Of a stretch of DNA of 64,000 nt, positions 10,001 through 56,433 are shown piece after piece (the first letter of the stretch is position 1; the number at the start of each line of letters is the position of its first letter). Under the pieces are notes generated by a model. That model was given only the letters and a program-made list of their open reading frames with translations. It did no database searches and was not told where the DNA came from. Both the position numbers and the translations under genes were made by a program. Source of the DNA: Clostridia bacterium (GTDB lineage Bacteria > Bacillota > Clostridia > Monoglobales > Monoglobaceae); assembly GCA_017622215.1 (NCBI GenBank), contig JAGARO010000012.1, positions 65,043 through 129,042 of the forward strand. Reading direction: 5' to 3'.

Positions 10001-10198
10001 AAAAAAACCCTGCATGTGCCGTATATTGCATAAGGTAAAAACCTGCATAGCAGGTGGGCTGTAGCCCGATTACTTTACAAGTCCACTGGCATTGCCAAAG
10101 GCAAAGGAGGCATGTGCGCCATAATCGGAGACCTACGTTCCCTTATAAAATGTGTTGGTTTTACATTATTGCAATTAAATACGAACACCGCAGGGTGA
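10001..10198 (-). ncRNA. ssrS: 6S RNA
   Basis: On the minus strand the region is closed by a terminal stem CCCTGCGGTG (5') with CAC-at-GCAGGG (3'), followed by seven T, and is about 195 nt long, the size of 6S RNA. The 5' sequence CCCTGCGGTGTTCG resembles the 6S terminal stem. A long interrupted hairpin with an internal loop fills the middle. A strong promoter precedes it, and no ORF explains the conservation-like structure. 6S RNA mimics an open promoter and holds sigma-A RNA polymerase in stationary phase. Identification is from overall form, not a covariance search. Confidence 0.72.
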
Positions 10199-10206
10199 GC
10201 ATCTTT

Positions 10207-35505: not shown

Positions 35506-37233
35506 TTGATTAAGAAGCTTTCTAAATGTATCGGCGAATATAAAAAAGATGCAATCCTTTCACCTGTTTTTGTGGGATGTGAAACTTTTCTAGAAGTTTT
35601 AATTCCATTTTTAATGTCAAAGCTTATTGATAAAGGTATAAATGCAGGTAATTTAAGTGAAATTGTGAAGTATGGAAGTATTCTTATTGTTTTTGCACTT
35701 TGTTCTCTTACTTTCGGCATTCTTGCAGGCAGTTACGCTGCCAAGGCGTCAACAGGATTTGCGAAAAATATAAGAAAAAGAATGTTTTATAATGTGCAGA
35801 ATTTCTCTTTCAGAAATATTGATAAATTCTCCACTGCAAGTATTGTAACAAGACTTACAACTGATGTAACCCATCTTCAGAATTCATTTTTGATGATTAT
35901 AAGAACAGCTGTGCGTTGTCCTGCTATGCTTATTTTCTCTTTGGCAATGACTATGTATATAAGCGGAAAAATGTCCCTTATATTCCTTGTTCTTTTGCCT
36001 TTTATGGCTGTTGCTTTATTCCTTATTTCAAGCTCGGCACATCCGATTTTTAAGAAGATGTTTAAGACCTATGACAAGCTTAACAGGATTGTTCAGGAAA
36101 ACTTAAGAGGTATAAGAGTTGTAAAATCCTATGTTCGTGAAGACCACGAGGCAGGCAAATTTAAAGAGGTTTCAGGGGAAATTTACAACTACTCCACAGG
36201 GGCGGAAAAAATTCTTTCCTTTAACGGTCCTGTAATGCAGTTTGCTACATATACGGCAATAATTGCTATTGCCTGGTTCGGAGCGAAGATGATTGTTGTG
36301 GGCAATCTTACAGAGGGTCAGCTTGTAAGCCTTTTATCCTACGTTATGCAGGTGCTTATGAGCCTTATGATGCTTTCTATGGTATTTGTTATGCTTGTTA
36401 TGTCAAGGGCGTCGGCTGAACGTATTACCGAAATTCTTGACGAGGAAAGCGATATTAAGAATCCTGAAGAGGCGGTTATGGAGCTTAATTCAGGTAAAAT
36501 TGAGTTTAAAAATGTATTCTTTGGTTACTCCGATAACAAGGACAGATACTGCTTAAAGGATATAAATTTAACCATTGAATCGGGAGAAACTGTGGGAATT
36601 ATCGGCGGAACAGGTAGCTCTAAGAGTACCCTTGTTCAGCTTATTCCAAGACTTTATGACACAAAAGAGGGAGAAGTTTTAGTTGATGGCAGAAATGTCC
36701 GTGAATATGACCTCGAAGTCTTAAGAGATTCTGTAGCTATGGTGCTTCAGAAGAATGAACTGTTTTCAGGTACTATAAAAGACAATCTTTGCTGGGGCAA
36801 TAAAGACGCCACAGATGAGGAGATTGTAAGGATATGCAGACTTGCACAGGCAGACAGCTTTATCCAGTCCTTCCCTGAAAAATATGAAACAAAAATTGAG
36901 CAGGGCGGAACTAATGTTTCAGGTGGACAGAAGCAGAGGCTCTGTATTGCAAGAGCTCTTCTTAAAAGCCCTAAAATTCTCATTTTAGACGATTCTACCA
37001 GCGCTGTTGACACTCGGACTGATGCTGAAATCAGACGGGCATTCAGGGAAGAAATCCCACATATTACAAAGCTTATTATTGCCCAGAGAATTTCCTCTGT
37101 TCAGGATGCTGACAAAATTATCGTTATGGATAACGGACGCATTGACGCTGTTGGAACACATGACCAGCTTCTTGAAAGCAACGAAATTTACCGTGAGGTA
37201 TATAACTCACAGGTGAAGGGAGGGGAAGAATAA
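35506..37233 (+). CDS. Heterodimeric ABC exporter, degenerate-site subunit
   Basis: 575 residues: six TM helices (about 1-310) then a nucleotide-binding domain. Walker A GGTGSSKST and signature VSGGQKQR are normal, but Walker B reads LILDDSTSAVD, with Asp in place of the catalytic Glu, and the H-loop reads IIAQR, with Gln in place of His. These changes mark the inactive half-site of TM287/288- or BmrCD-like heterodimers. TTG start with TAGGAGGGG. Its stop overlaps the partner's ATG by one base (TAATG). Confidence 0.95.
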   Translation: MIKKLSKCIGEYKKDAILSPVFVGCETFLEVLIPFLMSKLIDKGINAGNLSEIVKYGSILIVFALCSLTFGILAGSYAAKASTGFAKNIRKRMFYNVQNFSFRNIDKFSTASIVTRLTTDVTHLQNSFLMIIRTAVRCPAMLIFSLAMTMYISGKMSLIFLVLLPFMAVALFLISSSAHPIFKKMFKTYDKLNRIVQENLRGIRVVKSYVREDHEAGKFKEVSGEIYNYSTGAEKILSFNGPVMQFATYTAIIAIAWFGAKMIVVGNLTEGQLVSLLSYVMQVLMSLMMLSMVFVMLVMSRASAERITEILDEESDIKNPEEAVMELNSGKIEFKNVFFGYSDNKDRYCLKDINLTIESGETVGIIGGTGSSKSTLVQLIPRLYDTKEGEVLVDGRNVREYDLEVLRDSVAMVLQKNELFSGTIKDNLCWGNKDATDEEIVRICRLAQADSFIQSFPEKYETKIEQGGTNVSGGQKQRLCIARALLKSPKILILDDSTSAVDTRTDAEIRRAFREEIPHITKLIIAQRISSVQDADKIIVMDNGRIDAVGTHDQLLESNEIYREVYNSQVKGGEE

Positions 37234-39122
37234 TGCCTCCTGTAAGACACTATGCGGGACCTAAAACAAGAGATGTTAAGGGCTCCCTTTTAAGACTCCT
37301 TTCCTATTTCAAGGAGTATAAGCCACATCTTTTCTTCGTTGTAATCTGTATTATAATTTCTGCTGTAGCAGGCGTAAGAGGCTCTGTGTTTATACAGACG
37401 CTGATTGACGACCACATTGTTCCAATCTCCAACAACCCGTCTATTGGTTATTCGGGACTTTTGAGTGCAATTATTAAAATGGCATTTATATATCTTCTTG
37501 GGGTTGTGTCAAACTTTACATTTAACAGAATTATGGTTGTTGTGTCCCAGGGGATTTTAAGAGATGTTAGAAATCAGATGTATGACCATATGGAAAAGCT
37601 TCCAATCAGGTATTTTGATACTCATACCCACGGGGATGTTATGAGCCATTATACAAACGATACGGATACTCTCAGGCAGATGATTTCCCAGAGTATGCCA
37701 CAGCTTTTCTCTTCTGCAATTACAATTGTATCTGTGTTCTCCGCTATGATAACTATGAGCTGGCAGATGACAATTATTGTTATCTGTATGGTATTTATTA
37801 TTCTTAACTGCACAAAGATTATAGGCGGAAAGAGCGGTAAGTTCTTCGGTGCACAGCAGAAATCAATCGGTCAGGTTAACGGCTACATTGAAGAAATGAT
37901 AAACGGACAGAAAGTTATTAAGGTTTTCTGCCATGAGGAAGAAGCAAAGAAGAATTTTGATAAGCTTAATGATGAGCTTTTTGAAAATGCAAATCTTGCC
38001 AATAAGTATGCAAATATTATTATGCCTGTAAACGGTAACCTGGGAAATATCCAGTATGTACTCGTTGCATTCTTCGGCGGACTTTTGTCTATTGTATTTA
38101 AAGTACCGGGACTTACTGTTGGTACAATTGCAGCATTTTTACAGCTCAGCAAGAGCTTTACTATGCCTGTCAGTCAGGTTTCACAGCAGTTTAACTACAT
38201 CGTTATGGCGCTTGCGGGGGCTGAAAGAATTTTCGACCTTCTTGATGAAGAGCCTGAAACTGACGAGGGCTATGTCACTTTGGTTAATGCAAAAGTGGAA
38301 GATGGACAGATTACGGAAACCCTTGAAAGAACAGGTATGTGGGCGTGGAAACATCCTCACGGCGACGGCTCTGTAACCTACACGGAACTTAAGGGAGATG
38401 TGGTTTTAGAAAATGTTGACTTCGGATACAACCCTGAAAAGACTGTGCTTCACAATATAAGTCTTTATGCAAAGCCAGGTCAGAAGGTTGCATTTGTTGG
38501 TGCAACAGGTGCAGGTAAAACTACAATCACAAATCTTATAAACCGTTTCTACGATATTCAGGACGGAAAAATCCGTTATGATGATATAAATATAAATAAG
38601 ATTAAGAAAGCTGATTTAAGACACTCTCTTGGAATTGTTCTTCAGGACGTAAACCTCTTTACAGGTACTGTTATGGAGAATATCAGGTACGGAAAGCTTG
38701 ATGCAACAGACGAAGAGGTTATTGCTGCAGCTAAACTTGCTAACGCTGACGGATTTATAAATATGCTTCCTGATGGGTATAACACTGTGATTTCAGGAGA
38801 CGGCTCTGACTTGTCCCAGGGACAGCGTCAGCTTATCTCTATCGCCCGTGCAGCTGTTGCTGACCCGCCTGTTATGATTCTTGACGAGGCTACATCAAGC
38901 ATTGATACAAGAACTGAAAGCATTGTACAGCAGGGTATGGTCCGACTTATGAAGGGCAGAACTGTCTTTGTAATAGCTCACAGACTTTCAACTGTGCAGA
39001 ATTCTGATGTTATAATGGTTCTTGAAAACGGCAATATAATTGAGCGTGGAACTCACGATGAGCTTATCCTGCAGAAAGGCAAATATTATCAGCTCTACAC
39101 AGGTGCATTTGAGCTTGAATAA
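37233..39122 (+). CDS. Heterodimeric ABC exporter, catalytic subunit
   Basis: 629 residues: six TM helices, then a nucleotide-binding domain. Walker A GATGAGKTT, signature LSQGQRQL, Walker B MILDEATSSID with catalytic Glu, and H-loop VIAHRLS are canonical. An insertion between TM and ATPase domains (about 355-395, EDGQITETLERTGMWAWKH) is typical of this subfamily. Probably a multidrug or lipid exporter; substrate not deducible. Confidence 0.95.
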   Translation: MPPVRHYAGPKTRDVKGSLLRLLSYFKEYKPHLFFVVICIIISAVAGVRGSVFIQTLIDDHIVPISNNPSIGYSGLLSAIIKMAFIYLLGVVSNFTFNRIMVVVSQGILRDVRNQMYDHMEKLPIRYFDTHTHGDVMSHYTNDTDTLRQMISQSMPQLFSSAITIVSVFSAMITMSWQMTIIVICMVFIILNCTKIIGGKSGKFFGAQQKSIGQVNGYIEEMINGQKVIKVFCHEEEAKKNFDKLNDELFENANLANKYANIIMPVNGNLGNIQYVLVAFFGGLLSIVFKVPGLTVGTIAAFLQLSKSFTMPVSQVSQQFNYIVMALAGAERIFDLLDEEPETDEGYVTLVNAKVEDGQITETLERTGMWAWKHPHGDGSVTYTELKGDVVLENVDFGYNPEKTVLHNISLYAKPGQKVAFVGATGAGKTTITNLINRFYDIQDGKIRYDDININKIKKADLRHSLGIVLQDVNLFTGTVMENIRYGKLDATDEEVIAAAKLANADGFINMLPDGYNTVISGDGSDLSQGQRQLISIARAAVADPPVMILDEATSSIDTRTESIVQQGMVRLMKGRTVFVIAHRLSTVQNSDVIMVLENGNIIERGTHDELILQKGKYYQLYTGAFELE

Positions 39123-39125
39123 TCA

Positions 39126-39154
39126 TTGACAAAACAAATAAAAACTGCTATAAT
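39126..39154 (+). promoter_or_regulatory. Consensus promoter of tRNA-Leu
   Basis: TTGACA (39126-39131), 17 bases, TATAAT (39149-39154): a perfect consensus match, starting 4 bases after the ABC exporter stop codon. Confidence 0.9.
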
Positions 39155-39187
39155 GTTAAGGCTACGCAAAGTAGCCTTAACATTTTT
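39153..39187 (+). terminator. ABC operon terminator overlapping the tRNA promoter
   Basis: ATGTTAAGGCTAC (39153-39165), loop GCAAA, GTAGCCTTAACAT (39171-39183), then TTTT: a perfect 13-bp stem. Only transcripts coming from upstream contain the whole 5' arm, because the tRNA promoter would start near 39160-39161. Confidence 0.75.
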
Positions 39188-39189
39188 AT

Positions 39190-39275
39190 GCGGGTGTGGC
39201 GGAATTGGCAGACGTGCAAGATTTAGGTTCTTGTGTCCAGTAGGCGTGCAGGTTCAAGTCCTGTCACCCGCACCA
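39190..39275 (+). tRNA. tRNA-Leu (anticodon UAG)
   Basis: 86 bases including encoded CCA. Acceptor stem GCGGGTG pairs with CACCCGC; D-arm GGCGGAATTGGCAGAC, anticodon loop TTTAGGT with anticodon TAG at 39224-39226, a long variable arm of class II type, and T-arm GGTTCAAGTCC. It reads CUA and other CUN codons. Confidence 0.97.
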
Positions 39276-39295
39276 AACAAAAGAATAAACGCAGG

Positions 39296-39452
39296 CCATC
39301 AGATGTATAGTGCATCTGTTACCGGACATACTGCAGGACGGTATTGTCAGGTGATAAGGGAATACGGTGGGAATCCGTAGCAACAGCCATTGCCGTAACT
39401 CTTGCTAAGGCAAGTCAAGTCGGAATGCTTATCGGTTTGTGATACATAAAAG
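39296..39452 (+). promoter_or_regulatory. Cobalamin riboswitch aptamer
   Basis: The core AAGGGAATACGGTGGGAATC (39357-39376), then CAACAGCCATTGCCGTAAC and AAGTCGGAATGC, matches the B12-box architecture, with CCATTG in place of the usual CCACTG. Hairpin CAGATG-N6-CATCTG and another stem lie before it. A terminator follows. It governs the lipoprotein and ECF component downstream. Boundaries are approximate. Confidence 0.85.
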
Positions 39453-39456
39453 TCTC

Positions 39457-39484
39457 TTGGGCAATATGGGGAGATGTGTATAAT
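39457..39484 (+). promoter_or_regulatory. Possible internal promoter after the aptamer
   Basis: TTGGGC (39457-39462), 16 bases, TATAAT (39479-39484). The -35 matches only 3 of 6, so this is weak; it would bypass the aptamer but not the terminator. Confidence 0.3.
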
Positions 39485-39516
39485 CAGGTTTTTGTATAAT
39501 TGTGCCTGAATTTTAC

Positions 39517-39547
39517 AGTACCCTCATAGAAGGGTACTTTTATTTTA
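39517..39547 (+). terminator. Riboswitch expression-platform terminator
   Basis: GTACCCT (39518-39524) pairs with AGGGTAC (39531-39537), followed by a T-rich tract, 30 bases before the lipoprotein start. Confidence 0.8.
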
Positions 39548-39577
39548 TCCTTTTGAAAAAAGAAAGGATTGAGAAAT

Positions 39578-39994
39578 ATGAAAAAATTTTTATGTGCAGT
39601 GCTTGTTGCTATTTTGATTTTCAGTTTTACTGCCTGTGGAAGCTCTGTTGACAAGGCGGGATTATGGGAAAATGCAATTTATCTTGAGGATACTGTTCTT
39701 GGCATTGGAGAAAAAACATTCACAGCAGAAGTAGAAGCAGGGGAAGAGGTTGTTGTGTTTACTGTGAATACTGATAAAAAGACTGTGGGAGAGGCTTTGA
39801 CCGAACTTAAGCTTGTTGACGGAGAGGAAGGACCTTACGGCCTTTATGTTAAAGCTGTAAACGGCATAACTGCCGACTACGACGTTGACAAGAGCTACTG
39901 GGCATTCTATATTGGCGAGGAGTATGCAACATCAGGCATGGATACAACTGAAATTACAGAGGGAGCTACATACAGAATTGTTTACACGAAATAA
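39578..39994 (+). CDS. DUF4430 (transcobalamin-like) lipoprotein
   Basis: 138 residues. Lipoprotein signal with the lipobox FTAC (Cys about 20), then a DUF4430 domain: the motif VDGEEGPYGLYVKAVNGITADYD, then YWAFYIGEEYATSGMDT, as in transcobalamin-like binding domains. It sits between the B12 riboswitch and an ECF S component, so it likely captures cobalamin or a related corrinoid at the surface. ATG 39578 with AAAGGA; TTG 39569 is the longer alternative. Overlaps the next gene by 17 bases. Confidence 0.88.
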   Translation: MKKFLCAVLVAILIFSFTACGSSVDKAGLWENAIYLEDTVLGIGEKTFTAEVEAGEEVVVFTVNTDKKTVGEALTELKLVDGEEGPYGLYVKAVNGITADYDVDKSYWAFYIGEEYATSGMDTTEITEGATYRIVYTK

Positions 39995-40520
39995 TGGTGC
40001 TACGGGCAGAGGAAAACAAGCTCTGAGCGTTAAAGAAATGGTCGTGTTTGCCATGCTTGGCACGATTATGTTCTGTTCAAAGATTATTATGGAGCTTTTG
40101 CCAAACATTCATCTTATCGGGATGTTTACAATGGTTTTTACGGTTGTATTTCGTAAAAAGGCTTTAATTCCGATTTACATTTATGTTATTTTGAGCGGTA
40201 TTTACGCAGGCTTTACAAACTGGTGGATTCCATACCTTTATATCTGGACAGCTCTCTGGGGAGTTACAATGCTTTTGCCAAAGAATATGTCCGAAAGGGT
40301 TGCCTGTATAGTTTATCCCGTTGTATGCCTTATGCACGGTCTGTTCTACGGTGTACTTTATGCTCCTGCTCAGGCGTTACTGTTCGGTCTTAATTTTAAA
40401 CAGGCTCTGGCATGGATTATATCGGGATTGCCTTTTGATATAATGCACGGAATAGGAAACTTTTGTGCAGGATTCCTTATTCTGCCTTTGTCAAAGGTAC
40501 TTATAAAATTGAATAAATAA
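39978..40520 (+). CDS. ECF transporter S component, predicted cobalamin-specific
   Basis: 180 residues with about five or six TM helices (e.g. VVFAMLGTIMFCSKIIMELL, YLYIWTALWGVTMLLP). Substrate-binding subunit for energy-coupling-factor import; the shared EcfA/EcfA'/EcfT module is elsewhere. The cobalamin riboswitch and the DUF4430 lipoprotein point to vitamin B12 or a precursor (inference). Start uncertain: TTG 39978 or ATG 40038; GAGGGAG at about 39958 favours 39978. It overlaps the lipoprotein gene, so translation is coupled. Confidence 0.8.
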   Translation: MFTRNNGATGRGKQALSVKEMVVFAMLGTIMFCSKIIMELLPNIHLIGMFTMVFTVVFRKKALIPIYIYVILSGIYAGFTNWWIPYLYIWTALWGVTMLLPKNMSERVACIVYPVVCLMHGLFYGVLYAPAQALLFGLNFKQALAWIISGLPFDIMHGIGNFCAGFLILPLSKVLIKLNK

Positions 40521-56087: not shown

Positions 56088-56433
56088 GGGGGCGTAAAGG
56101 TTTCGACGGGGATTTTGAAGTTTTCGGAGCGAGCCGTGGCGGGCACCACGTTAAAAGTCCATTTTAAAATTAAACGCTAACAAAAATTTAGCTTACGCTG
56201 CCTAATTATGGCAACTGCTCCCCTTGTGTAACCACAGCATAAGCAAGGAGTATCAAAGTATGTGGTGAACGAGTCCTGTAAAGCTTTGAACAGGTCTTGT
56301 ATTTATGAAGCTACCAAAGGGATTGGATTGTTAATGAACCTGTCCCTGAGGGAATTTTAATCATTAACTACGCTCGTAGCGCTGATTATGAATAGGTCTT
56401 CGGACACGGGTTCAATTCCCGTCGCCTCCACCA
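56088..56433 (+). ncRNA. ssrA: Transfer-messenger RNA
   Basis: 346 nt, one-piece. 5' GGGGGCGTAAAGG pairs with the 3' CGCCTCC, followed by encoded A-CCA; the T-arm GGTTCAATTCC lies at 56408-56418. The tag reading frame is GCT at 56176 to TAA 56203-56205, encoding ANKNLAYAA after the Ala from charged tmRNA. The tag ends in AYAA rather than the usual ALAA. A 15-bp terminator follows. Confidence 0.95.

Follow-up and report, generated by a model that had tools for sequence, protein, structure and literature searches.

Riboswitches are usually described as the 5′ leaders of mRNAs with promoters of their own, and the excision of tRNAs by RNase P and 3′ nucleases is established. Transcription units that combine a tRNA with an mRNA are known (PMC4448216). 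One such unit of a tRNA and a protein gene is secG–leuU of Escherichia coli, which is cited in PMC3985628. Among transporters, ECF–CbrT of Lactobacillus delbrueckii is a vitamin B12 transporter (PMC5997447, PDB ID: 6FNP).

Here, we analyzed a stretch of 64,000 nucleotides (the window) from the 1.18-Mb genome of a Clostridia bacterium, in which a tRNA-Leu(UAG) gene, a cobalamin riboswitch, a DUF4430 lipoprotein gene, and the gene for an ECF-type S component follow each other on the forward strand. The first-pass annotation had placed the tRNA and the riboswitch on one transcript, and both the sequence and the comparison with relatives support this. It is very likely that the tRNA, the riboswitch, and the two protein genes form one unit transcribed from the tRNA promoter, and the strongest support for this reading is that the terminator expected of the tRNA and the promoter expected of the riboswitch are both missing at one junction.

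The tRNA-Leu(UAG) gene and its boundaries

The tRNA-Leu(UAG) gene (39190–39275, CCA encoded) was detected by ARAGORN and scored 52.7 bits with Rfam. It is the sole UAG copy found in the genome, where the remaining leucine tRNAs found are UAA, GAG, CAA, and CAG. Its promoter (TTGACA-17-TATAAT, 39126–39154) had been called a perfect consensus; it does match at 12 of 12 positions, carries a TG 5′ of the −10 hexamer, and scores 17.05 in the sigma-70 scoring versus a random best of 7.0 ± 2.1. Both hexamers are the same in the other available genome of the genus (G016, Clostridia bacterium RGIG8470 from water deer cecum, an independent metagenome assembly). The predicted start of the transcript is a G at 39160 or 39161.

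An ABC transporter operon ends just 5′ of this promoter. Its second gene (37233–39122; Pfam ABC_membrane and ABC_tran), which is paired with a partner at 35506–37233, has its stop codon at 39122. A perfect 14-bp hairpin and its adjoining T tract (39152–39184, −19.9 kcal/mol) lie 30 nt past the stop codon, and the left arm of the hairpin covers the −10 hexamer and the start site of the tRNA. This hairpin is probably the intrinsic terminator of the ABC operon, and the predicted terminator also shields the tRNA unit from that operon. RNA started at 39160 or 39161 retains 6 or 5 bp of the hairpin (−10.1 or −6.4 kcal/mol, respectively), separated from the T tract, so the element should not halt transcription of the tRNA. 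One DNA stretch would thus both close the ABC unit and open the tRNA unit. The hairpin is absent from the first-pass annotation and was not listed by the terminator pattern scan, probably because the scan extended its stem into the T tract.

On the 3′ side of the tRNA, the first-pass annotation had reported no terminator before the riboswitch, and our scan likewise found none until the terminator of the riboswitch itself (39517–39538). When the 3′ sides of all other tRNA units found in this genome were compared, an intrinsic terminator began no more than 10 nt past the CCA end in 21 of the 23; such a terminator was found at 20 of 1500 random window positions. Every readable orthologue of tRNA-Leu(UAG) from the family's other genera (23/23) had a candidate terminator that begins no more than 25 nt downstream. 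Because all of these orthologues have one, the terminator is most likely a feature that was lost here rather than one that was never needed.

The scans also brought up other features. At tRNA-Val(UAC) (L107, G000:C7:55561–55633), no terminator is present, and the start codon of yceD lies ~23 nt on, followed by rpmF (L32); this is a probable further tRNA–mRNA unit in the genome. Downstream of tRNA-Ser(CGA) (L120, G000:C1:155895–155983), there are a hairpin whose T tract is poor, a ribosome-binding site, and a thioredoxin reductase-like gene, into which partial read-through is possible. The window additionally contains a 6S RNA (10003–10199, reverse strand) and a tmRNA (56088–56433, forward strand; tag ANKNLAYAA).

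The riboswitch and the genes behind it

The tRNA is separated from the aptamer by a spacer of 14 nt (39276–39289), which holds neither a promoter nor a terminator and is identical in G016. The aptamer (39290–39441) is closed by P1, formed by 39290–39297 and 39434–39441. The RF00174 match covers 39306–39450 with 30.4 bits (E = 6.6e-6), for which the curated cut-off is 31.5; the orthologue in G016 scores 31.9, above the cut-off. This is the only RF00174 match in the genome. Since P1 starts at 39290, 5′ of the Rfam boundary at 39306, the aptamer is nearer to the tRNA than Rfam suggests.

Three copies were compared, namely the riboswitch of the window, its G016 orthologue, and a diverged second copy in G016 (L039). 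P1 is conserved in all of them, and the three one-sided changes seen in it are consistent with the stem. The P13 hairpin (39452–39475) presents the loop GGCAAU (39460–39465), complementary to AUUGCC of L5 (39389–39394), and this L5–L13 kissing loop is kept in 94% of cells in the three-copy comparison. The antiterminator strand UAUGGGG (39465–39471) forms seven pairs with CCUCAUA (39522–39528), and this pairing is mutually exclusive with both L13 and the terminator. The terminator hairpin (39517–39538, −10.8 kcal/mol), followed by a T tract, is present in the diverged copy as well. In that copy, the antiterminator pairing has become AUUGGGG with CCCCAAU, by two compensatory double changes and one change from wobble to Watson–Crick. 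The antiterminator is 100% paired, versus 32 to 48% in slid controls, with the whole structure counted; the covariation, from three sequences only, was matched by 48 of 500 shuffles. The compensatory changes are therefore suggestive support for an intact switch. With kissing loop, terminator, and antiterminator all present, the riboswitch looks intact, and its logic would be that of the usual off-switch, in which B12 stabilizes the kissing loop and P13 and thereby frees the terminator.

The first gene of the putatively regulated operon encodes a DUF4430 lipoprotein (39578–39994; Pfam PF14478, 5.9e-7; PDB ID: 3u7z, E = 2.6e-11). The second (39996–40520) encodes an ECF-type S component, assigned from similarity to CbrT (6fnp_A, E = 0.0015) and from its predicted fold. 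The model (pLDDT 80.7) has the S-component fold, as its nearest PDB folds are S components; the top match is TmRibU (TM 0.69, prob 0.99, E = 0.64). The first-pass annotation had labeled the operon ECF/B12. The fold part of that label is borne out by the model, and specificity for B12 is suggested by the riboswitch context and the weak similarity to CbrT, so that the protein is a probable cobalamin uptake subunit. No clear start codon of the S component was seen at 39990–40040; the starts of homologues align near residue 10 of the frame, at CTG AGC GTT, and an in-frame ATG first appears at about 40038.

These data also bear on the possibility that termination or cleavage ahead of the riboswitch affects most tRNA transcripts, which would leave read-through as a minor source and the operon practically silent or in decay. 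The slightly substandard Rfam score of the aptamer and the small, compact genome would fit such a state. However, the switch persists and its antiterminator shows compensatory changes, the lipoprotein and S-component frames are open and 96 to 98% identical in G016, and no terminator lies between the tRNA and 39517, which makes decay very improbable.

Distribution of the junction and the search for a riboswitch promoter

Adjacency in relatives had been named in the first-pass annotation as a check on the shared transcript, and each of the two genomes available for the genus (this genome, G000, and G016) carries the tRNA–riboswitch junction, with ~98% identity, a comparison whose depth is that of two closely related genomes. 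An assembly chimera was ruled out, as the junction is common to two separate metagenome assemblies.

The diverged G016 copy (L039) has no tRNA and is 87% identical to the tRNA-linked copy over the shared part. The sequence shared by the tRNA-linked and tRNA-free copies starts 2 nt past the CCA end, which points to the riboswitch cassette itself as the unit that is mobile or was duplicated. The region 5′ of the tRNA-free copy (L039:487–646) recurs in G030 (79%) and G019 (69%) and stops just before the riboswitch. It adjoins an uncharacterized ORF of opposite orientation, resembles a mobile-element terminus, and contains a 15-bp hairpin over a −10-like TAGAAT site. This region was considered as the ancestral promoter of the riboswitch and rejected; given its recurrence in other genomes, a mobile element has probably replaced whatever stood there.

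A tRNA just before the riboswitch was found at none of ~40 other riboswitch loci in the family, and only one of these loci (L045) has a tRNA nearby at all, a tRNA-Ser in the opposite orientation. We also searched 84,980 species for the cobalamin core within about 60 to 90 nt behind a tRNA, with a core pattern that found 32 of the 40 family loci and thus misses some. Both parts were confirmed in only 4 of the 23 matches: L060, which is G016, and three from unrelated lineages, a deltaproteobacterium (L048), Erythrobacter (L049), and Fimbriimonadales (L069), in which the riboswitch lies 41 to 51 nt past a tRNA on the same strand. The other matches proved to be either tRNAs beside spurious core matches or riboswitches that lack a tRNA. 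So few confirmed matches indicate that the arrangement is rare and sporadic, with no obvious selection for it elsewhere. The DUF4430/S-component pair occurs without riboswitch or tRNA in G031, G032, and G020; the links to the riboswitch and the tRNA are accordingly later or separate.

The first-pass annotation had seen no convincing promoter between the tRNA and the riboswitch, and the scoring, which covers sigma-70 only, agrees. The best site for a start at 39258–39295 reaches only 1.45 bits, a value attained by 83% of random window stretches. A strong dedicated promoter (score ≥10) precedes 25 of the 38 riboswitches from the family's other genera, and in 24 of these 25, the −10 hexamer ends 3 to 34 nt before the aptamer; no strong riboswitch promoter was found in the two genomes of this genus. 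Since the remaining 13 of the 38 are likewise without an obvious promoter by sigma-70 scoring, its absence alone is a weak argument, and the 14-nt spacer is a stronger one.

The riboswitch might nevertheless use a hidden promoter in the tRNA body or the spacer, perhaps one for an alternative sigma factor, and its position behind the tRNA would then be incidental. Such a promoter would accord with the majority of family riboswitches, and at least one of the three unrelated tRNA–riboswitch lineages (L069) has an extended −10 within its gap of 51 nt. We consider a hidden promoter unlikely, because the best site scores below most random stretches, a spacer of this length would require the elements to be encoded within an invariant tRNA, and the sequence shared with the diverged copy does not extend 5′ of the spacer, so that the copies have no common promoter further 5′.

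A start 3′ of the aptamer, at ~39490, would let the B12 operon escape the aptamer altogether. The weak candidate put forward in the first-pass annotation for this position (TTGGGC-16-TATAAT, 39457–39484) does exist, and its TATAAT is also present in G016_C7. However, its score of 7.9 bits is near the random mean of 7.0, and it sits on P13/L13: TTGGGC is conserved because it is part of that element, whose GGCAAU pairs with L5, and TATAAT is not conserved in the diverged copy. RNA started there would still reach the terminator, and would do so without the antiterminator strand. A start at this site is therefore extremely improbable, and the tRNA promoter is the preferred origin of the operon RNA.

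Proposed shared transcript and comparison with known systems

We infer the start site, co-transcription, the response to B12, and tRNA processing from the features of the DNA, and propose the following course. The RNA would begin at ~39160, within the predicted terminator hairpin of the ABC operon, and the remnant of that hairpin would be too short to terminate the tRNA transcript. RNA polymerase would continue through the tRNA into the aptamer, and this transcript would be constitutive. When B12 is bound, L5 would kiss L13, P13 would hold, the terminator at 39517–39538 would form, and the RNA would stop at 39538. Without B12, the 3′ strand of P13 and L13 would pair with the 5′ side and the loop of the terminator, and the uptake genes would be transcribed. 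RNase P and 3′ nucleases would free the tRNA in either case; as the riboswitch decides only what follows the tRNA, the tRNA supply would be independent of B12. The terminator of the riboswitch would also act as that of the tRNA gene. In the simplest history, the cassette landed directly behind tRNA-Leu, and the tRNA terminator and the riboswitch promoter were then lost, which would have left one unit.

An evolved two-input gate is possible, and we regard it as rather doubtful; in it, the tRNA promoter, under growth-rate or stringent control, would determine the amount of B12-uptake RNA initiated, and B12 the amount completed. If it were true, uptake capacity would scale with translation capacity, and the riboswitch terminator would be the only terminator of the tRNA. 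More generally, a metabolite switch behind a tRNA would mean that a housekeeping non-coding gene provides the transcription and the riboswitch provides the 3′ terminator of the tRNA. The junction may illustrate how promoters come to be shared as a genome shrinks, in this case the small genome of an uncultured gut Clostridia bacterium. The locus further offers a straightforward natural means of testing whether a riboswitch remains functional once RNase P has removed its 5′ neighbor.

No precedent for the co-transcription of a tRNA and a riboswitch was found in the literature searched, most subscription journals lying outside it. The tRNA–mRNA unit and the cobalamin riboswitch are each known, and their combination appears to be undescribed in that literature. 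The riboswitch resembles RF00174 members of the transcription-terminating type in its core, its L5–L13 kissing loop, its mutually exclusive antiterminator and terminator, and its location before B12 uptake genes. Unlike these, it has no promoter of its own, lies 14 nt past a tRNA, and has a marginal score (30.4 versus 31.5). The S component is similar to CbrT in length and fold, whereas the sequence similarity is weak (E = 0.0015) and the gene is linked here to that of a DUF4430 lipoprotein. As in tRNA–mRNA dicistronic units, a tRNA and protein genes would share one proposed transcript from which the tRNA is excised, and the locus has the sequence hallmarks of such units, a single upstream promoter and no terminator separating the tRNA from what follows it. 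In the known examples cited here, the protein gene comes first, whereas here the tRNA comes first and a metabolite switch stands between it and the genes.
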